This document shows, piece after piece, positions 1 to 42,879 of a stretch of 42,879 nucleotides of DNA. The stretch is from a virus. The DNA lies in the IMG/VR virus record IMGVR_UViG_3300036851_000513, positions 1-42,879 of that record, one strand, 5' to 3'. The stretch's first letter is position 1. Every line of letters starts with the position of its first letter. The notes under the pieces were generated by a model. That model was not told where the DNA came from and searched no databases. It worked only from the letters and a program-made list of their open reading frames with translations. The translations under genes were made by a program, and so were the position numbers.

Positions 1-15
1 CCTCACGACCTTCTT

Positions 16-36
16 GATGGGCAATGGATGGCAAGA
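16..36. repeat. Candidate integrase arm-type site, left of core
   Basis: Contains ATGGGCAA followed after three bases by ATGGCAAGA. A near-identical tandem motif lies at 191-214 on the other side of the tRNA half. Paired short repeats flanking a core are the usual arrangement of arm sites bound by the N-terminal domain of lambda-type integrases. Binding here is inferred only. Confidence 0.4.
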
Positions 37-78
37 TCTCAGGAACAGATGGGATGGTGCGGACTTTCGAGGGCTCCC

Positions 79-121
79 GTGGCTCCGCAGGCCAACGCTC
101 TATCCACTGAGCTACGGGCGC
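79..121 (-). other. 5' half of a tRNA-Arg-like gene, probable integration core
   Basis: Read on the minus strand from 121: acceptor 5' strand GCGCCCG, TA, D-stem GCTC/GAGC with an 8-nt loop, then an anticodon arm whose loop is CTGCGGA (anticodon GCG, arginine, if numbering is standard). The anticodon stem has one mismatch. After position 79 no T-arm and no CGGGCGC acceptor partner appear, so this is not a full tRNA. The layout fits a phage-carried tRNA 5' half that would complete a host gene after recombination. The second copy lies at 42796-42838. Arginine identity is inferred from the half only. Confidence 0.7.
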
Positions 122-133
122 GTACCCTTGATA

Positions 134-169
134 GGACTGCATTTTCTCACGCATCGGTCTTCTCGTCAA
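134..169 (-). promoter_or_regulatory. Sigma70-like promoter pointing into the tRNA half
   Basis: On the minus strand TTGACG (164-169, 5 of 6 to consensus) is followed by exactly 17 bp and GAAAAT (141-146, 4 of 6). The predicted start near 134 leaves a leader of about 13 nt before the tRNA 5' end at 121, a typical tRNA leader length. This promoter would drive a hybrid tRNA formed on integration. It overlaps the stop of the small gene 170-346 by nothing, so it sits in the gap between that gene and the core. Confidence 0.5.
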
Positions 170-6108: not shown

Positions 6109-6460
6109 GCTTCGGAGGTGCCTGCCACCCGCGCTTGGGTGCCAGAATGTTCACGGTGTAGGACCACAGTTCAGGTGTGAGCCGGTGGACGTTATTGAGA
6201 GCGGCATTCCGGCTCGCTGCGACGGCGAGCTCGCGCCCCGTGATTTCCGTCATCTGCCCGGGCCCGCGGCGGCTTATCAGCGCCGAGAGGGAGCCCCAGT
6301 GATGCGGATGATCCGCCTTGATACCTGCAGCTTCGAGCGAAAGGCGGAGATGGCTAAACTCGAGACCTTCGTTCCCGTTCATAAAGAACAGACGACAAAT
6401 CTCCTCGCGCGCCTGGCGCAGGAGATACTCCGCAACGAGGATGTCCGGACCGCCGGTCAT
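6068..6460 (-). CDS. Hypothetical early phage protein
   Basis: 130 residues from the ATG at 6458-6460, which forms ATGA with the upstream stop and has GGACGGAG before it. Helical N-terminal half (LVAEYLLRQAREEICRLFF) and a block HPHHWGSLSALISRRG followed by TGRELAVAASRN, resembling the DPNAWG-type motif of phage proteins found near replication and nuclease genes. No established function. C-terminus is basic and Pro-rich. Confidence 0.65.
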   Translation of the reverse strand: MTGGPDILVAEYLLRQAREEICRLFFMNGNEGLEFSHLRLSLEAAGIKADHPHHWGSLSALISRRGPGQMTEITGRELAVAASRNAALNNVHRLTPELWSYTVNILAPKRGWQAPPKRGPQSEQVSLVER

Positions 6461-17338: not shown

Positions 17339-17737
17339 CTAATCCGCAGACCGATTGATCGTCTCGCGGATTTGTTCGGCGATGATAGTGCCAACTGGTG
17401 CAACGAATGCCACATCGAATCCTCCGATGGCCCGCAGGCTCTGGGGGCCGGCGAATTGCAGCAATCGAGGTTTACGCGTCAGCTCGCCCCCATTGTCCCG
17501 TAGCCATGCCGCGACCTGATCCCCCAGGGGGCCGTCGAGGAAGACAGCATCGAACTCCAAGGCGGTCAGGTAACGCACGGCCATATGGAATAGTGCGCAG
17601 GTGAAGACCTCGTGCGGGCCTGACATGTCCTCGTCCGTGAGGACGTGAACGAGGTGACGCGGGCGACCGCGCTGATCGAGGCGATCGCCGACCACGACTT
17701 CGCCGAGTGCTGCCTTCCCCACCACAAGGATCCGCAT
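17339..17737 (-). CDS. Hypothetical tail-region protein
   Basis: 132 residues from ATG 17735-17737 overlapping the hub stop as TGATG. Begins MRILVVGKAALGEVVVGDRL, with further beta-alpha units (FDAVFLDGPLGDQVAAWL; GFDVAFVAPVGTIIAEQI), so a small Rossmann-like alpha/beta fold is likely. No catalytic motif seen. Position directly after the hub gene suggests a baseplate accessory. Confidence 0.6.
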   Translation of the reverse strand: MRILVVGKAALGEVVVGDRLDQRGRPRHLVHVLTDEDMSGPHEVFTCALFHMAVRYLTALEFDAVFLDGPLGDQVAAWLRDNGGELTRKPRLLQFAGPQSLRAIGGFDVAFVAPVGTIIAEQIRETINRSAD

Positions 17738-20466
17738 CAAAATCCCAGGCGGTTCTGGTCCAAACGCCCTTCAGGATCCTTGTCGAGGGTGAGCCAGTCG
17801 TAATCCACATGCTTGCGGAGCTGGTAGGTCACGGTGTGCTCAAATCCTGGTGCCTGGACGGTTTCCCGAAGCCCGTCCACCACCCAGCGGTAGGATACTC
17901 CCGTGAGGCTCTCGACGATCTCGATCACTGTCCCGAGATCGATCTCGAGCATGTCTGGGAAGACGTTCCTAAGTGTCATCTCCGCCGGCGGCACGACGTC
18001 TTTGCGGTCTAGCACAAGAAACTCCGCAAGGTCCTTGGCGTACAGGTCCTTACCGATCAGGTCGTTGTCGATCACCCCGTCATGCTTCTGAAAGTCCTCC
18101 TGGCTCGTCACATCGGAGGCCTCGCGCAGAATGGGGGTCTGGGCGCGGAGCGGCTTCCCGCGCAGCTCGAATTTCGAGACGAAGATGGTGGCACCGTCGT
18201 TGTTGGTGAGCGTCACCTTGGATTTCTCGGCGAAGAAAACCACGACGACACCGAGCTGAGCCGTCTTGTCCGTACCAGTCTCCGTGGAGCCTGCCGTGTA
18301 ATCGGTCGTCGCCACTGGGGTGACCATCTCATCGGCCGGCGCTCGAACAAAGCTCGTCTGTGATGGATCGAAATACTCCAGAAACAACTCTACGGACGCG
18401 CCGACGGCGAGTTCGTAGGGCACTTGCAGCTTGGCCACAACGGCGAGGGAAGCGTCTTTCTTGCGCGGGTTACTCTTGACCTGGACGGCGTTGAGGATGC
18501 GGGCCTCGTCGTAGACAGGCCGAAAGTCCACCATCTCCGCGTCGTAGGTCTTGTAGGTCGCCGCACCGAGCGTCCAGTAGCGGTTCTCCAGGCGATACTT
18601 CCCCGATGGATCGATGTAGTGGGCGTACTGCCCGGCCTCGACCGGCTTGCGTAGGGCCTCAAGGGCCGCCTCGTCCGTGAAGAGGGCAAAGGGTGATGTG
18701 TCGACCGTCGTCGCCAAGACGCGCTCACCTGAGGGCACGCCAGCCTCGTCCAGGATTTCCGTGATGATCGCGCCGAGGGTTTGGTCGGCGAGAATGCCGG
18801 TGGTGACCCGCTTTGCCCGGAGCAGTTTGAAGCGATCCTCCAGGACGCAGTTTACGACCCGACTATCCTCAGGCCCGGCCTCAAGGCGGGTCTCCGGCTC
18901 GTACTTGAGGATATAGCCCGTGAAGCGGTCCTTGGTGACACCAGAGGTGGCGGTGATCCGGGCTTTCAGGAACGGACGGAGCAGTCCAGCAAACTTCGAG
19001 GAAGGGTTGTCCGGGGAGTAGGTGCCCTCGGTAAAGTAGGCCTGGTCTCGGGTCGACCAGGCGGCCCCGGTGATCGTCCCGTGGTTGAGGTTCGTGGTTG
19101 CGTCTTGAGCCTGTGTGCCGGAAGCTTCATCGAGTCTCCAGTACCCCACGAGGCCCTTCTCGTTCCCTGCGAGCCGGCGGTGCATGTTATTCTGGATCTG
19201 GGCCTGGGTGCGGGCGACGTTCCAGATGCGGTTTTCATCAAGCAAACCATCAATGAACCCGCTGTTTGGGGGTGAGCTGGGGCCGTGGGCACCGAAGTGG
19301 AGAGGGCCTGTTGTTGTGCCGATTGTACCGGTCTCAGACTGAGAAGCAAGGAGAATTCCGTCAACGTAGAGTCGCATAGCCGAACCATCATATGTTCCCG
19401 CGACGTGATACCATCGTCCGGCCACTGGGACCACATTGGAATAAAGTGAGCGCTGTACGCCAGCGAGGAAGAGCCTAAAGGCCCATCCCACGTTACCACC
19501 ATCATCCGACTTCCACAGAAGATAGGCTGTGTTGATAGGGTCTTTTGAGATGAACGTCGGATGATTCGTGGTCACAATGTCGAACTTGACCCAGCTTTCC
19601 AGCGTGATCGCTGAAACAATATCCAGAGCAGGAGCGTCAGGGACCTCGACATAGTCATCCACCCCATCGAAGCTCAGGGCAGGGCTACTCTGTTTCCCCT
19701 CCACGTTGTTGAGCTCGATGCGGGCTTGGCCGGTGACGATCTCGCCCCGGATGGCTTCCGAGCGGCCGCGGGAGATGCTGTACTCCCGGAGGTCTGCCGC
19801 GATGTCGGCGATCTCCCGCTCTGACCAGGCCGCTCCGGTGAGGGTCCCATGATTCGCGTTCGAAGTGGCGTCCTTGACCTGGGTCCCGGTATCTTCATCC
19901 ATCCTCCACAGACCCACCAGCCCGGACTCCGTGCCAGCCAGACGGCGGAATCGGTTCTCGGCGATCTGGGCCTGGGTGCGGGCGACGTTCCAGATGCGGA
20001 CGTCGTCGAGGACACACCCAGCAGGCCCAACATTGCTTGAGCCTCCGAACTTGAAGGAAGCCGCCGTGTTTGGGAGACTGAGGATATCTGCTGTCGGCCC
20101 ACCAACCAACGCCCCATTCAGATAGATACGGATGTTACTCCCATCAAATGTGCAGGCGACATGATAAAGGGTATCGAGGCTGAGCACTCCCGTGTTGACC
20201 GTGACGTTTGAGTCCGTGGAGAGTCGGCGGTTGAAATGCACGGACTCGTTAGGCTCTTTTACGACCTGCCAGCCATCACCAGCCCCGGTCAACTTCCCGA
20301 GAATGTGTCGATGGTCGGCTGTTTCTACCGTAAGTTTGATCCAAAACTCGACGGTGAACGCGGCCGTACCCGCGAAGTCCCATACATCCCCAACTGTGAC
20401 GACATCATCCACCCCATCGAAGCTCAGGGCGGGCGAGAGCAAATTGAGCTTATAGGTGGCTGGCAT
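17737..20466 (-). CDS. Tail hub/tip protein with two inserted LamG domains
   Basis: 909 residues. Two LamG/concanavalin-like jelly rolls, about 10-215 and 258-475, each starting SPALSFDGVDD and containing VARTQAQI and GLVG-W-DE blocks. Around them is a phage tail hub: KLNLL, then ADLREYSISRGRSEAIRGEI with TGQARIELNNVEGK, and after the second LamG YSPDNPSSKFAGLL followed by FTGYILKYEPE. Thus the hub's LDN-x-DGRFSP-x-N-type strand pair is split by LamG2. The C-terminal 400 residues are the conserved tip part. LamG modules probably bind surface glycans. Confidence 0.8.
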   Translation of the reverse strand: MPATYKLNLLSPALSFDGVDDVVTVGDVWDFAGTAAFTVEFWIKLTVETADHRHILGKLTGAGDGWQVVKEPNESVHFNRRLSTDSNVTVNTGVLSLDTLYHVACTFDGSNIRIYLNGALVGGPTADILSLPNTAASFKFGGSSNVGPAGCVLDDVRIWNVARTQAQIAENRFRRLAGTESGLVGLWRMDEDTGTQVKDATSNANHGTLTGAAWSEREIADIAADLREYSISRGRSEAIRGEIVTGQARIELNNVEGKQSSPALSFDGVDDYVEVPDAPALDIVSAITLESWVKFDIVTTNHPTFISKDPINTAYLLWKSDDGGNVGWAFRLFLAGVQRSLYSNVVPVAGRWYHVAGTYDGSAMRLYVDGILLASQSETGTIGTTTGPLHFGAHGPSSPPNSGFIDGLLDENRIWNVARTQAQIQNNMHRRLAGNEKGLVGYWRLDEASGTQAQDATTNLNHGTITGAAWSTRDQAYFTEGTYSPDNPSSKFAGLLRPFLKARITATSGVTKDRFTGYILKYEPETRLEAGPEDSRVVNCVLEDRFKLLRAKRVTTGILADQTLGAIITEILDEAGVPSGERVLATTVDTSPFALFTDEAALEALRKPVEAGQYAHYIDPSGKYRLENRYWTLGAATYKTYDAEMVDFRPVYDEARILNAVQVKSNPRKKDASLAVVAKLQVPYELAVGASVELFLEYFDPSQTSFVRAPADEMVTPVATTDYTAGSTETGTDKTAQLGVVVVFFAEKSKVTLTNNDGATIFVSKFELRGKPLRAQTPILREASDVTSQEDFQKHDGVIDNDLIGKDLYAKDLAEFLVLDRKDVVPPAEMTLRNVFPDMLEIDLGTVIEIVESLTGVSYRWVVDGLRETVQAPGFEHTVTYQLRKHVDYDWLTLDKDPEGRLDQNRLGF
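19195..19999. repeat. Direct repeats marking the duplicated LamG module
   Basis: A 37-bp stretch at 19195-19231 is identical to 19963-19999 (both within the VARTQAQI-coding part), and the start of each LamG also shares a run of about 25 bases (around 19660 and 20410). The two modules lie about 768 bp and 750 bp apart, so the domain was duplicated recently or is homogenised by recombination. Confidence 0.8.
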
Positions 20467-31327: not shown

Positions 31328-32676
31328 CGTCGGCCTCCGTCGCCGTTGCCCGCCACCAGACTAAGAGCATCTGCCCGCCGGCGCACAGTCAGCCGGCGCC
31401 GCGGCCGTCCTTCCGCGTCCAACCCCTCGTCCTGCTCCATCTCCATATCGGGGTTGTCCTGCACCATCCGGAGCGCTTGCTCCGCGGAGATCATGTTGAG
31501 CGGAGAGAGGTAGATGTCACCCTCCGGACCGATCGCGTTGCGATCCTCCACCTCGAGGATGTCGTTGACGGACTCGAAGCCCCACTGCCGAGCGACCGCA
31601 TGAGCCTGATACCGCTCCAGTGTCTTGCCGCGGAGCAATCCCTCGAGCTTGAACCTGACGAAGAACTCTTTGCGCTCCTGTGGGTCCATCAAGTCACGGG
31701 CGATCGCCTGCTCCCATCTGACGAGCCACGGGGTCAGGGTATCGGTGACGAACTCGATGCTCTGTTCCTCGATGTTGGAAAACGTCGCGTGCTCCAGATC
31801 GCCCAGCTTGTGCGGAGGGATGCGATAGATTCGCGCGATCTCGTTAACCTGGAACTTCCGGGTCTGGAGCCACTGAGCGTCATCCGGCGGGATCGTCAGC
31901 TTCTCGTACTTCAGCCCCTCCTCGAGGATGAGAAGCCGATGGGAGTGGGGCAACCCGGAACGCTTCTCCGCGATGGACTTATCGAGCCGATCGTACGCCG
32001 GGTCGCTGAGAGTACCGGGGTGCTGGAGCACACCACCAGCCATCATGCCCTGGCCGAAGAAACGGGCGCCGAACTCGGATGCGGCCAAACCCAGCGCCAC
32101 GGTCTCACGATGTAGCCGGATGGGTGACACCCCCTGCACGCCGTCCATAGCAAGAGCACGCACATGCAGCATCTGTGACTTCGGAAGGACCACGCGCCCG
32201 GCCCCCATCGGCAGGGTGATGTGATATTCCAGTGGCGCATCAACCGCGGGGCGTCGGATCTGCACCCGAGACGGATGGATCGGCCACAGCGCGAGGATCT
32301 CCCCGAGTGCGTTCCGCTGAATCTCCGCATAGGCGTTCCCCCAGAGTACAAGGGCCGCCATCTGAATCTCCCTGAACTCGCACGAGGTGAGCTCCGGATT
32401 CGGGAGATCGTGGAGTAGTGGGAAGAGCGCATGGTCGCGTGCGAGCCCCTTGCCTCTGTCCAATCGGCGATACATGAGAAGCGGCAGGGCGGCCACGCTT
32501 TCCGCGAGGACCTTCACCGCACCGAAGACTGCCGAGAAGGTTAGGGCTGCCTCTTCGGTGACCTTGATCCCAGCAAGAGTAGCGATCCCCAAATCCAGGC
32601 CCGACGCACTGGTGCTGACGAAGAACTCCTTCTTCAGCCACTGCTTGAATTTCGGCCAGACACCCCTACGCTCCAT
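31324..32676 (-). CDS. Portal protein, HK97 family
   Basis: 450 residues. Portal signatures: LTFSAVFGAVKVLAESVAAL, LPLLMYRRL, EFREIQMAALVLWGNAYAEI, PIHPSRVQI, and EIARIYRIPPHKLGDLEHAT, then a C-terminal helix with IARDLMDPQERKEFFVRFKL. It forms the dodecameric ring at the capsid vertex. Standard position between terminase and protease, overlapping the terminase stop by 11 bp. Basic/acidic C-terminal tail. Confidence 0.93.
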   Translation of the reverse strand: MERRGVWPKFKQWLKKEFFVSTSASGLDLGIATLAGIKVTEEAALTFSAVFGAVKVLAESVAALPLLMYRRLDRGKGLARDHALFPLLHDLPNPELTSCEFREIQMAALVLWGNAYAEIQRNALGEILALWPIHPSRVQIRRPAVDAPLEYHITLPMGAGRVVLPKSQMLHVRALAMDGVQGVSPIRLHRETVALGLAASEFGARFFGQGMMAGGVLQHPGTLSDPAYDRLDKSIAEKRSGLPHSHRLLILEEGLKYEKLTIPPDDAQWLQTRKFQVNEIARIYRIPPHKLGDLEHATFSNIEEQSIEFVTDTLTPWLVRWEQAIARDLMDPQERKEFFVRFKLEGLLRGKTLERYQAHAVARQWGFESVNDILEVEDRNAIGPEGDIYLSPLNMISAEQALRMVQDNPDMEMEQDEGLDAEGRPRRRLTVRRRADALSLVAGNGDGGRR

Positions 32677-34294
32677 CTATGCTGCGGACCCCCCGGGTTT
32701 CATACACACTCTTGCCTGTTTCCCCGGACGTTATCGCGTCCGTCCGGGCCTGCCATGAGAGCACGGCCGCCATCGCCGCGTCAATCTTGAATGGGCTATC
32801 GGGGCGTTCTTTTTGGATCACCCAAAGTGGCTGGCCCTTCTCATCAATCTGGCGCAGCGGCCGGCGATAGGCATTGCCGAGGTGTCTTGTGAGCACCTCA
32901 TCGCCTTTGTGGGTGACGGCACCGGATTGAACGGCCTCTCGGAATGCCATCAGCGCGTACGCCATCTTGACGTACTTGTTCGTCCAGAAGGCAACGACGC
33001 GTTTCTCGCCATACCGACCCGCCCACGCGCTGACCCACGTCGTCCAATACGGTGGATCTGCATACATTCGCCAGACGCGCCAGTGCTCGAAAGCGTGCGC
33101 GACGGCGGCATCAACTTCGTCTTCCGGGACTTCCCAATCCTCATCGTGACGAAGCGTCGTCGGTCGTTCCCAGACCGCCACGACCTGCTGCATTCCCGTC
33201 TTCACATCGGTGGCGACGATCGCGGTGGCGTCGAAGTACCGCGCACCGTCGAATCCAAGCGTGACCACCGCGCCTTTCGGAATCGTGAGATCGGGATTCG
33301 CCAGCGCCTTCCATTGCTGCACATCGAAGGCCCTGTCGGACGCCCGGACCATCCGGTTCGTCCAAACCCTCTCGAAATAAGAACGATCTGTGGTTGGGTC
33401 ACGCCACAAATCAACGATCCCATCGATGTCTGACCAGACCGCGGCTGCGCCGGAGGCCTCAATCACTGCGGCCCGCACACCTTCTTCGGTTGTGAGATCG
33501 TGACTGTCGGCAGCTTGTCGGTGAAAGAATAATAGGCGGGAATCCTTCTCCCGCCCTTCTTTGACCGCTCGCGCATACTCCCACGTCGCCTCGGCCACGG
33601 ATCCACCACCTGGTTCCGGCGCCGTCGTCACCTCGAGGCTCCACGCGTCGGCCTCCTTGCGCTTTGGAACGTTTGCCAACATCACCTGATGCGCCCGTCT
33701 GAGGTTGGGCAGCGTCATGCGGTGCGTTTCATCGAAACAATTCAAAGTTGTTCGCGCACCGTCTCGCGCATTTGGGGCGGTGGCCAGCGCAACGGCCTTT
33801 CCATCGCCACCCTTGCGCATGATGCGCTCGAGTCCGATGTCGAAGTCGTCGGCAAGCGGCCCCTCGCTGAGAACCACCCGGAGCGTCCCGTAAGCCAGTT
33901 CCTCGGACTGCTCTTCCGTATACGCGACCATCGGGATGTACGGGTCATCGACGGGCTTCCCCATCGGATTCCCCTTCTTATCCCAACCAGCGAAGCGTAC
34001 CGGCGCCTCCGGATGGAGCTCACAAGCTGCAATCCAAGCCATCAGCTCAGTTTTGGCTACACCCTTGCGCATGCTCAGCGCAACGCGCTTGAAGCGCCGG
34101 CGTCCAGCGAACTCGTGGCCCTTCGGATAGACTTCGTACATCCGCCAGATAAGGGCGCGTTTCTCATCATCAAGACGAGCCGGTTCCCCGCGCAGGTCTC
34201 CAGGACCATGCACAAGATTATCTTCGATAAACCTACACACGAGCGGCCCCAACGTGGGCCAAGGCTGATCGTCCTTCGCTGGCACTGGCACCAT
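32666..34294 (-). CDS. terL: Large terminase subunit
   Basis: 542 residues from the ATG at 34292-34294, the first start after the small-subunit stop (34303). ATPase domain: RKGVAKTE (76-83) stands where the Walker A motif is expected but lacks GxGKT, a known deviant in Terminase_1 relatives; Walker B is LNCFDETHRM (D188, E189). Nuclease half contains VTLGFDGARYFDATAIVATD and ADPPYWTTWVSAWAG. It cuts concatemers and drives DNA into the prohead. Normal order: small terminase upstream, portal downstream. Confidence 0.9.
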   Translation of the reverse strand: MVPVPAKDDQPWPTLGPLVCRFIEDNLVHGPGDLRGEPARLDDEKRALIWRMYEVYPKGHEFAGRRRFKRVALSMRKGVAKTELMAWIAACELHPEAPVRFAGWDKKGNPMGKPVDDPYIPMVAYTEEQSEELAYGTLRVVLSEGPLADDFDIGLERIMRKGGDGKAVALATAPNARDGARTTLNCFDETHRMTLPNLRRAHQVMLANVPKRKEADAWSLEVTTAPEPGGGSVAEATWEYARAVKEGREKDSRLLFFHRQAADSHDLTTEEGVRAAVIEASGAAAVWSDIDGIVDLWRDPTTDRSYFERVWTNRMVRASDRAFDVQQWKALANPDLTIPKGAVVTLGFDGARYFDATAIVATDVKTGMQQVVAVWERPTTLRHDEDWEVPEDEVDAAVAHAFEHWRVWRMYADPPYWTTWVSAWAGRYGEKRVVAFWTNKYVKMAYALMAFREAVQSGAVTHKGDEVLTRHLGNAYRRPLRQIDEKGQPLWVIQKERPDSPFKIDAAMAAVLSWQARTDAITSGETGKSVYETRGVRSIDGA

Positions 34295-34302
34295 GAAAAC
34301 GG

Positions 34303-34758
34303 TCACTGGACTACATGCAAGCTTGCCCGCGGATCCTTTCGCTGTAGAGGAGTGAGTGGTTTGTTCTTCCGCTCTGCGTCGGTCACGCGCTGGACTTCCC
34401 ATTGCAGACGTCTGCGATCAATCGGGCTGAGCCCGAACCGCTGTTCTTGCAGCCGGATCTCCGCAGCGAGCGTCGGCTTCGGATCACGCGTGAAATTGTC
34501 CTTGAGAATTGCAAGCGCAACGAGGCCGGGCACATCACTCTCAAGATATTCGGACCTCATCGGTGATTCCCACACGAGCTGCCACCACGCGAGTGTCCAC
34601 GGATGCCACTTTTTCTGATCGGGGCGCCGCTTCGGAAGCGTCGGCATCCCCACAATCGGCGCGGCCGCAGACAATGTCGCGGCTGTGGTGACACGATTGC
34701 GCCGCTGTCTAAGTTTTGAAGTCTTTGGGATTCGTGGCAATGTACGGAACCAGGACAT
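34303..34758 (-). CDS. terS: Small terminase subunit
   Basis: 151 residues. WHPWTLAWWQLVWESPMRSE, YLESDVPGLVALAILKDNFT, LAAEIRLQEQRFGLSPIDRR and RLQWEV form a pattern of actinophage-like small terminases (P27-related), with a basic N-terminus (LRQRRNRVTT). Binds the packaging site and hands DNA to the large subunit. Immediately upstream of terL, which starts 9 bp after its stop. The 96-bp gap upstream (34759-34854) is a candidate cos region. Confidence 0.8.
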   Translation of the reverse strand: MSWFRTLPRIPKTSKLRQRRNRVTTAATLSAAAPIVGMPTLPKRRPDQKKWHPWTLAWWQLVWESPMRSEYLESDVPGLVALAILKDNFTRDPKPTLAAEIRLQEQRFGLSPIDRRRLQWEVQRVTDAERKNKPLTPLQRKDPRASLHVVQ

Positions 34759-37801: not shown

Positions 37802-38323
37802 CTACTTCGTGCGCCCACTCACAACTCGCGCTTCTTTGGGAAGCGTCTGTCCCCAATCCTTGTCTAACCAGGTTCGCGCCTCCAGGGTCACGGGGAGATC
37901 CTCTCCCGCGAACTGTTCAACCCATGACACCAGCCGTTCGACCATCTCGCGCACCTTTTGTCGTTCAACGCCGAGCCAACAAGCCGCTCGCGCATATGCT
38001 TTTAGCTTATGGCGTTCCTGCTTCCATGACCTCAACTGCCTCTTCATATGCTCGTTCGCTGCCTGCAATTCGGTTCGTTCACGATCAAGCATCTCAATCG
38101 TCCCGCGGTCGTCATCGTACATACGGCTCACGACAGCCTTACCAACAAAGTAGAATTCTGCGTCACACGTCAGCCCCGCCTCGGACACTAACTCGTCGAT
38201 GCAAAGCGTGCAGAGCATCCCGTCCAATTCAGGATGTTCCTCGCGTACCGCCGCATTCCATACTTCATTAGGGATGGACGTATCCAACACATGAGGAGAC
38301 CCACATCGCTGGCAGAAGGTCAT
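37802..38323 (-). CDS. Zinc-finger coiled-coil protein
   Basis: 173 residues. N-terminal zinc site FCQRCGSPHVLDTS with a second pair MLCTLCIDEL (CxxC ... CxxC), then LTCDAEF and a coiled coil (MLDRERTELQAANEHMKRQL, RSWKQERHKLKAYARAACW). Coupled by ATGA to the HerA-like ATPase gene. May serve as an adaptor or partner of that ATPase, inferred from the coupling only. Confidence 0.68.
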   Translation of the reverse strand: MTFCQRCGSPHVLDTSIPNEVWNAAVREEHPELDGMLCTLCIDELVSEAGLTCDAEFYFVGKAVVSRMYDDDRGTIEMLDRERTELQAANEHMKRQLRSWKQERHKLKAYARAACWLGVERQKVREMVERLVSWVEQFAGEDLPVTLEARTWLDKDWGQTLPKEARVVSGRTK

Positions 38324-40122
38324 CGCCGACTCCCACCAAGGAACAGCACAGGACGGGCGACCACGCTACCCCTGTCAGGATAGTCGATGAAACCCAGCGA
38401 CCGGAGACGGCTCAGTGAGTTCACGAATCCCTTGCTCTGCAGGTGGCCGTAGCCAGCGGCCTGCGCGACCTCTTCACGCGGCAATGCCTGCGGGTAGGCG
38501 TCGATGAGCGGCTGCAGGATCCGTGCCGTCGCTCCTCCAAGCAGACCCACGATACGCTCCTGAACTTCTTGAACAGACCGTGGCCGCTCTGGGTATTTCG
38601 CCTGCGCCGTCCCCGTGTTCGTCAGCGCGACCGTGCCTCCGGATCCATATTCCGCGAGCCCGCCGGTCCTCAGGCTGCTCAGGGCGTTGATGAACCCCTT
38701 GCTCTGCAGATGTGTGTAGCCGGCGAGGAGAGCCACAAGCTCTCGGGGTGGCGTCGTGGAACCCAACACCTCCAGCTCAGCCAGCGCATCAAGGATCCGC
38801 TGTGCGACGCCGCTCAGCTGACCATCGGCAGAGGGAGCCACCGGCCGATGGTCCACGGTGACCGACCGCGCTTTGATAGCCTGCGGTCTGGAAGCAGGCA
38901 TCGCCTGTGCAACAGCGGCTCCACTCTTCACCTTGCCGGGGATCTCAGCGATCGCGTGGGCGGCCAGATGCAGGTCAGAGGCCTTGTCGGCTAGCTGCTG
39001 CGCGGTGCGCTTGAGGGTGTTGGCGATAGTCTCGAGTCGAGTGATCTGTCCGTCCTTCAGGACAGGCACCTCAACACGCTCCACCTTCACTTGTGGGGCA
39101 ACAGCCTGCGGCTTTCTGGCCAGCTCAGTTCTCAGCCTCGCGAGCTCGGCCTGTAGTGCCTTCGGGTCCTGTGCCTTCGCGCGCTCAATCGTGGCGGCCA
39201 TCTGGCGCTTCAGCGCGTCCAGATCGACGTCGGCCAGATTCTTCGGCTCAACGGGTTTCTTCCCAGGCTCAGGTGTGGCGCCGCTGTCGAAGGTCTCGAT
39301 GCGAAGAACCTTGACCCGCTCGAAGATACCGTCGGTTGTCGGCCACCCCGGAGACCAGACCCAGGCCTCCCCGGTAGGGAGAGCAGGCAGCGAGGCCATA
39401 AGGGTCTTCCGTTCGTCTTCGGTCCCGTGGACATCGATCCAGGCGTTCAGGGCTTCAAGATCCTGCGGGGCAATCGTGCGGAGGGCCATCAGGACCTGCA
39501 CTTGGGTCAGCACGTTCTTATTCAGGACCGCCGACCGTTGCGTGATGAGCGTGCAACCGATACCACGCTGCCCGCCTCGCCGCACAATATCTTCCGCAGC
39601 GCCGAGCATCCGCTCTTCGCCCTTCTGTGGCTTCTGAGGTGCGATGGCATCCGCCTCATCGATGACGAGCATCATGGGCGTACGAAACTGGTCGCGCGCC
39701 TTGAGCCGATAGAGGGCCTCGAGGAAGCCCTCCTGACCACCGCGGGGAGGCATCGGGCCCCCCATAAACTGTGCGACCTCACTCTTGCGGAAGCTCGACA
39801 AATCCAGGACGATGCTCACGCGTTCCTCGACCACGAGCTTCGCAACGATCTCCCCACCGCTGGGCTCGAGGTTCACGTCGCCGCGTTCTCCGCCGAGGAT
39901 GACCACCGGAAAGCCAGGTGCCTTGCCATCAGATGAGGACCTGATCCCCCACCAGTCACCCTTCGGGTCTACGATGACCACCTGCTGACCAGCCTTGAGG
40001 AGCTGCTCAGCCAGCCGGCGAGCGGTGTAGCTCTTCCCGGCTCGGCGCTTCGCGAGGATCCCAATGGATTGTGTGACGGCCTCAAGGGGTAGGCTGAGAT
40101 CAGCGGAGATTCGGAGCTTCAT
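38320..40122 (-). CDS. HerA/FtsK-like ATPase with tandem winged-helix C-terminus
   Basis: 600 residues from the ATG at 40120-40122, coupled (ATGA) to the zinc-ribbon gene. ATPase domain about 1-300: P-loop GILAKRRAGKSYTARRLAEQ (K30, S31), Walker B MMLVIDEADAI (D155, E156), sensor/finger region RRGGQRGIGCTLITQRSAVL. Coiled coil about 320-420. Then two winged-helix repeats each with HLQSKGF-[IV]-N-[AS]-LS-LR (about 470-530 and 545-600). HerA-type ATPases translocate DNA or pair with nucleases; the phage partner is not identified. Confidence 0.82.
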   Translation of the reverse strand: MKLRISADLSLPLEAVTQSIGILAKRRAGKSYTARRLAEQLLKAGQQVVIVDPKGDWWGIRSSSDGKAPGFPVVILGGERGDVNLEPSGGEIVAKLVVEERVSIVLDLSSFRKSEVAQFMGGPMPPRGGQEGFLEALYRLKARDQFRTPMMLVIDEADAIAPQKPQKGEERMLGAAEDIVRRGGQRGIGCTLITQRSAVLNKNVLTQVQVLMALRTIAPQDLEALNAWIDVHGTEDERKTLMASLPALPTGEAWVWSPGWPTTDGIFERVKVLRIETFDSGATPEPGKKPVEPKNLADVDLDALKRQMAATIERAKAQDPKALQAELARLRTELARKPQAVAPQVKVERVEVPVLKDGQITRLETIANTLKRTAQQLADKASDLHLAAHAIAEIPGKVKSGAAVAQAMPASRPQAIKARSVTVDHRPVAPSADGQLSGVAQRILDALAELEVLGSTTPPRELVALLAGYTHLQSKGFINALSSLRTGGLAEYGSGGTVALTNTGTAQAKYPERPRSVQEVQERIVGLLGGATARILQPLIDAYPQALPREEVAQAAGYGHLQSKGFVNSLSRLRSLGFIDYPDRGSVVARPVLFLGGSRR

Positions 40123-40283
40123 TTGGGTTTCTGCTTGTACCGCTCCAAGACGTGGTCGTACTTCCCTTCCTTCAGGTTCTTGACGATGCACTTGAGACAG
40201 TAGCCGCTCGGCGTAGCACCGCCCCGTTTGCAGCGAACGCATTTAACTGCCATGTTGACCTCGATGACCCGCGTATCGCTCAC
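40119..40283 (-). CDS. Zinc-ribbon protein coupled to HerA-like gene
   Basis: 54 residues from GTG 40281-40283, overlapping the preceding stop (GTGA) with GGAGGAG upstream; an internal ATG at 40253 gives 44. MAVKCVRCKRGG and GYCLKCIVKN form a CxxC-x-CxxC ribbon, followed by a basic helix. Stop overlaps the ATPase ATG (ATGA), so translation of the two is linked, suggesting a DNA-binding partner of the ATPase. Confidence 0.6.
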   Translation of the reverse strand: MSDTRVIEVNMAVKCVRCKRGGATPSGYCLKCIVKNLKEGKYDHVLERYKQKPK

Positions 40284-42717: not shown

Positions 42718-42841
42718 CCTCACGACCTTCTTGATGGGCAATGGATGGCAAGATCTCAGGAACAGATGGGATGGTGCGGACTTTCGAGGGCTCCCGTGGC
42801 TCCGCAGGCCAACGCTCTATCCACTGAGCTACGGGCGCGTA
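42718..42841. repeat. Right copy of the 124-bp terminal direct repeat
   Basis: Identical to 1-124, including the tRNA 5' half (42796-42838). After 42841 the sequence differs from that after 124. The flank here (42842-42879) contains a hairpin, and could be host DNA at an attachment junction or a second phage end. Confidence 0.85.
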
Positions 42842-42849
42842 GAAATGAA

Positions 42850-42875
42850 TGGCCTCCGGTGTGACCCGGAGGCCA
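42850..42875 (-). terminator. Perfect 10-bp hairpin beyond the att repeat
   Basis: TGGCCTCCGG, 6-nt loop, CCGGAGGCCA. On the minus strand it is followed by TTCATTTCTAC and then the tRNA 5' end, so it would terminate transcription arriving from the right just before the tRNA. Likely host-side sequence. Confidence 0.6.
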
Positions 42876-42879
42876 CATC

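Follow-up and report, generated by a model that had tools for sequence, protein, structure and literature searches.

A temperate phage attachment site carrying the 5' half of a tRNA-Arg gene behind a candidate phage promoter, in a probable Armatimonadota-like host

The analysed stretch of DNA, hereafter the window, is a complete, stand-alone IMG/VR virus record of 42,879 bp. It carries genes for terminase, portal, head protease, major head protein, head-tail adaptor, tape measure and tail proteins, and because of these structural genes we assign it to a tailed temperate phage; its host is probably an Armatimonadota-like bacterium. The large terminase (32666-34402) is separate from a 640-aa HerA-like helicase/ATPase (38320-40242), which also matches a PHROG terminase family. 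Inside a 909-aa gene that matches baseplate and virion-structural proteins, a 193-bp direct repeat (19055-19247 and 19823-20015, 72% identical) is probably an internal domain duplication.

One related record, IMGVR_UViG_3300031576_001095 (L207, with L236), has a portal 77% identical to that of the window and an integrase that does not match, a pattern consistent with exchange of the integration module. Among 17 phage records retrieved by portal or terminase similarity, five carry an integrase and none has a tRNA 5' half adjacent to it. These phages were therefore set aside as guides to the phage attachment site (attP).

The integration module lies at the left end of the window, and the attachment-site features and genes described for it are on the minus strand. 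A 400-aa tyrosine integrase (668-1870; Pfam PF00589, E 9.5e-23) is preceded directly upstream by a C5-cytosine DNA methyltransferase gene (1873-2871) on the same strand. Downstream of the integrase are an ORF of 110-120 aa with no assigned function (343-705) and a 58-aa ORF (170-346), and all three read towards a partial tRNA gene near the end of the record. Relatives of the integrase in genomes of the host clade (defined below) share 30-42% identity with it, and integrases of cultured phages reach at most ~32% among the matches listed.

Self-comparison of the window revealed a direct repeat, 1-124 and 42718-42841, exact over 124 bp as the original prediction had reported. That prediction took the whole repeat as the attachment site, which did not hold: the core shared with the host is only ~45 bp (80-124). 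Because the left copy begins with the first base of the record, it is cut off there by the contig end, and the assembly makes 124 bp a lower bound. With positions 1-79 belonging to a phage arm, 124 bp as the att core is ruled out. In both copies (80-124 and 42797-42841) the core consists of TAC followed by GCGCCCGTAGCTCAGTGGATAGAGCGTTGGCCTGCGGAGCCA on the minus strand; the right limit of the left core, at 124, was set by comparison with the right copy.

The minus strand from 121 to 80 (42 nt) is exactly nt 1-42 of tRNA-Arg(GCG), with the anticodon arm at 95-80 and its loop at 90-84. In a set of 84,980 species genomes, this 42-mer was found in five contigs, always as nt 1-42 of an intact tRNA-Arg(gcg). 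Three of these contigs are labelled Armatimonadetes and one Candidatus Nitrosymbiomonas (Armatimonadota), and all five records fall in one group of 43 genomes, the host clade. Identity between phage and host ends at nt 42; nt 43 belongs to the 3' strand of the anticodon stem, and from there the hosts read AAGG where the phage reads CGGG. The original prediction of the 5' half of a tRNA-Arg-like gene up to the anticodon stem was thus borne out. Neither the 42-mer nor the host flank at the right end (see below) had a match when searched in viral contigs. ARAGORN and Rfam found no complete tRNA in the window, which rules out a complete phage tRNA of the disrupted isotype. The same tRNA-Arg(gcg) gene is also used by an element of the 3' type in contig G001:C88 (L078, 1867-1942), where a displaced 3' fragment (nt 29-75, 94%) lies 4.5 kb downstream at 6414-6460.

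Downstream of nt 42, both repeat copies run on into identical phage sequence and not into a tRNA 3' half. As phage sequence follows nt 42 in the left copy, this copy is attP and not a host junction. The P arm of attP (1-79, repeated at 42718-42796) is unrelated to the tRNA 3' half. ATGGGCAA motifs flank the core in pairs, at 17, 192 and 203 with a variant at 27-35, and are candidate arm-type integrase sites: TTGCCCATC (16-24) and CTTGCCATC (27-35) on the P arm, and TTGCCCATA (191-199) and TTGCCCATC (202-210) on the P' arm, the latter two inside the 58-aa ORF. We place attP at ~16-210. The contig runs once round the phage, as an excised circle, a concatemer or a tandem, and the 79 bp of phage arm are repeated because it starts inside attP and ends across a junction.

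The sole host junction in the record is this right end. Upstream of the tRNA half, the right copy leaves the phage sequence at a point 3 bp ahead of tRNA nt 1; 38 bp remain (42842-42879). They contain a hairpin at 42849-42876 (-25 kcal/mol). The native tRNA-Arg(gcg) leaders of G001, G003, G006, G007 and G014 have a similar hairpin between the -10 box and the tRNA, mostly of the GGCCNCCGG type (L050, L051, L053, L057 and L059; 50 bp before the tRNA). Given these native hairpins, the 38 bp are most likely a host tRNA-Arg leader, and the host promoter would lie just outside the window. Possibly the hairpin is a leader element of tRNA-Arg(gcg), placed between the gene and its promoter; considering the native leaders, it is less likely to terminate an upstream gene. 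A hybrid query of host flank plus tRNA found the 38-bp flank in 0/43 host-clade genomes, and the flank is too short to place in a genome.

At the attP copy, the tRNA half is preceded by phage sequence with a candidate promoter, TTGACG-17-GAAAAT with an extended TG (169-141), located as the original prediction had stated. The stop codon of the 58-aa ORF abuts its -35 box. In the form TTGACG-17-TGAGAAAAT, it lies 19 nt before tRNA nt 1, which is within the host range and fits the predicted leader of ~13 nt. We trained a two-box promoter model on 98 host-clade tRNA leaders (learned -10, TGCTATAAT), and its best site within the 110 bp preceding the phage tRNA half was this same TTGACG/GAAAAT site. 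The site scores 10.1, a value matched or exceeded by 1.8% of phage 110-mers and 4.2% of dinucleotide shuffles, and 95% of host tRNA leaders score higher (host median 16.8). The model thus rates the promoter as plausible but weak, above the phage background. Only TAC is shared between the window flank and the host sequence upstream of the tRNA, which makes the phage leader, with any promoter that it contains, the phage's own.

We collected ~40 integrases from the 43 host-clade genomes that are related to that of the window or of G028. Most have the 3' polarity: ~18 lie by an intact tRNA with its 3' end towards the integrase, and ~7 by a 3' fragment in the same direction. Three loci have the polarity of the window, two at tRNA-SeC (G028 and G034) and one at tRNA-Ala (G042). 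In G028, an intact tRNA-SeC (contig C76) lies ~50 bp downstream of the integrase gene and points its 5' end towards that gene; contig C24 holds the displaced 5' fragment, which is exact over nt 1-45. The flank of this fragment is syntenic with the region upstream of the intact tRNA-SeC in G026 (2.7 kb, 74%), with shorter matches in G023, G024, G025 and G029, and the flank of the intact copy has no match in any of these five genomes.

G034 has the same layout, with the 5' fragment (nt 1-44) on C58 and the intact copy on C336, and the arm motif TTTGCAC occurs in pairs on each arm in G028 and G034 alike. G042 has an intact tRNA-Ala(cgc) behind an integrase fragment, with the displaced 5' fragment (nt 1-38) on C89. 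The intact and displaced copies have ~43 bp in common upstream, including the promoter, and the displaced copy has a TATACT to CATACT change and a D-arm change, as expected without selection. In contrast to the window, the G042 element carries a near-copy of the host promoter, and that of G034 shares ~14 bp of flank. We infer that the intact tRNA and the displaced fragment bound one element in each of the three genomes, where they lie on separate contigs of draft assemblies.

Our main reading, to which we give a probability of roughly 0.75, is that the phage supplies the 5' half of tRNA-Arg together with its upstream region, and that the gene is rebuilt at the integrase end. The integrase would recombine attP with the anticodon arm of the host tRNA-Arg(GCG) gene. 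Of the host gene, the promoter and 5' half would remain at the far end as a non-functional fragment, seen at the right end of the window; next to the integrase, the host 3' half would be joined to the phage leader and 5' half, giving a complete tRNA. By reciprocity, this second junction should consist of the phage promoter, the 5' half and the host 3' half (the 125-169 side, the core and a AAGGTCGTGGG-type 3' half). When the predicted integrase-side junction and the empty site were each assembled in silico, ARAGORN called a complete tRNA-Arg(gcg) in both, and it called no tRNA in attP or at the right junction. Transcripts of the rebuilt tRNA would start at the phage promoter, come from read-through of the integrase operon, or both, and in either case expression would be under phage control. 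The original prediction had the phage supply a promoter plus the 5' half; the 5' half and upstream region are supported by the attP anatomy, one host junction and, most strongly, the three related-integrase loci, and the promoter is a plausible but weak candidate.

Restoration of the gene is probably needed by the host. In G006, 41 of 47 tRNAs could be read, with one copy each of tRNA-Arg tct, gcg, tcg, ccg and cct and no acg among those 41; the six unread tRNAs are 82-92 nt long, the size of Leu and Ser genes. A single-copy tRNA-Arg(gcg), the missing acg and the lack of a complete tRNA in the window together suggest that the phage must give back what it interrupts.

A variant of this scheme keeps the 5'-half restoration but has read-through of the integrase operon as the main source of the tRNA, with an incidental -35/-10 match. 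The integrase and the two ORFs behind it are co-oriented, and no minus-strand terminator was found between this operon and the tRNA half. Read-through is thus a second possible source of the tRNA, and as a source it is equal in possibility to the phage promoter. For pTN3-like elements, expression of the rebuilt tRNA is attributed to the integrase promoter (PMC8371274). The weak promoter match in the window, and the even lower scores of the element leaders of G028 and G034, point the same way. Against read-through as the main source, the promoter site is the best one at a normal tRNA distance and beats 98% of phage sequence. Moreover, the integrase is usually silent in lysogens, while the tRNA is needed continuously. 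We consider this variant possible but rather improbable.

It is unlikely that the right end is an assembly chimera formed through the shared 45 bp, with a circular phage that is not integrated there and a tRNA half that is only a scar of attP capture. The flank stops exactly 3 bp short of the tRNA and has a leader hairpin of the native type, which argues against a chimera, whereas the stand-alone record, the shortness of the host flank and a left copy that is clearly attP would fit one. Even so, the host tRNA would have been present in the sample, and the attP anatomy alone fixes the polarity. Very improbable is that integration destroys the tRNA-Arg gene and that the phage or another host gene compensates, by tRNA-dependent lysogeny or a redundant isoacceptor: the assembled left copy indeed does not continue into a tRNA 3' half, but the window offers no complete tRNA, a 45-bp core ending in the anticodon arm is long enough to rebuild the gene, unlike cores of 8-10 bp (PMC10865867), and G006 has a single tRNA-Arg(gcg) with no acg among the 41 tRNAs read.

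Almost all tRNA-integrating phages leave the tRNA its own promoter, so that integration occurs without a change in transcription. If the phage-supplied 5' half and upstream region act as we propose, transcription of a host tRNA that is probably essential would rely on viral DNA in every lysogen. This would give the prophage a possible lever on host translation, and losing the rebuilt end would be costly.

Restoration of a tRNA by its 5' half is already known and is rare (PMC4383910, PMC8371274), and the window is probably a further case of it. Islander mapped 3,919 tDNA islands, 3,760 with a 3' fragment versus 159 with a 5' fragment (PMC4383910). Like members of the 5' class, the window carries an exact 5' part of a host tRNA in attP (nt 1-42) and a tyrosine integrase inside the element, and it would restore the 5' part of the tRNA and leave a displaced 5' fragment, probably the one at its right end. 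It differs in being a tailed phage of an uncultivated Armatimonadota-like group whose upstream flank is unrelated to the host leader. Archaeal pTN3-like integrases also use a tRNA 5' half, and the tRNA that they rebuild loses its original promoter (PMC8371274, PMC5495485). A review of these integrases states, citing Williams 2002 (NAR 30:866), that comparable cases are rarely found in bacteria. The window resembles pTN3 in the length of the tRNA half in attP (41 bp in pTN3, ~45 bp here) and in the predicted separation of the rebuilt tRNA from its promoter. However, it is bacterial, and the attP of pTN3 lies inside the integrase gene, which integration splits, whereas here the core (80-124) is outside the integrase gene (668-1870), which stays whole.

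Canonical prophages that restore the 3' half share with the window a core in the anticodon arm, pairs of arm sites and a tyrosine integrase beside attP, and the close relatives of its integrase belong to this type. The polarity of the window is reversed in comparison, as it supplies the 5' half and an upstream flank. In the tRNA-dependent lysogeny of mycobacteriophage Fionnbharth, the core is 8-10 bp long, integration breaks the tRNA, and the loss is made good by a complete phage tRNA (PMC10865867). There too the phage must keep a host tRNA function alive, but the window has neither a complete phage tRNA nor a ~10-bp core; instead, its ~45-bp core would rebuild the gene, and the predicted product folds as tRNA-Arg.

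A maximum-likelihood tree of 33 integrases requires at least three changes of polarity on supported branches. The 5'-type L041 (from G042) is sister (100/97) to the 3'-type L019, both at Ala-CGC, with L041 being a fragment of 182 aligned residues. We tentatively suggest, at somewhat less than even odds, that elements within one integrase family of this bacterial phylum repeatedly switch the tRNA half they carry, sometimes at the same gene (L019/L041), and that the window phage replaced the host promoter and leader hairpin with its own and so brought the dedicated CGC/CGU-reading tRNA under phage regulation. Sister elements with opposite polarity, the same tRNA and related integrases make the origin of tRNA-site polarity directly testable. 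Integration from both sides seems to make tRNA-SeC a hot spot in the host clade: in addition to the 5' fragments in G028 and G034, contig G025:C123 (L173) has two short exact copies of the tRNA-SeC 3' end, at 1112-1133 and 17389-17415.
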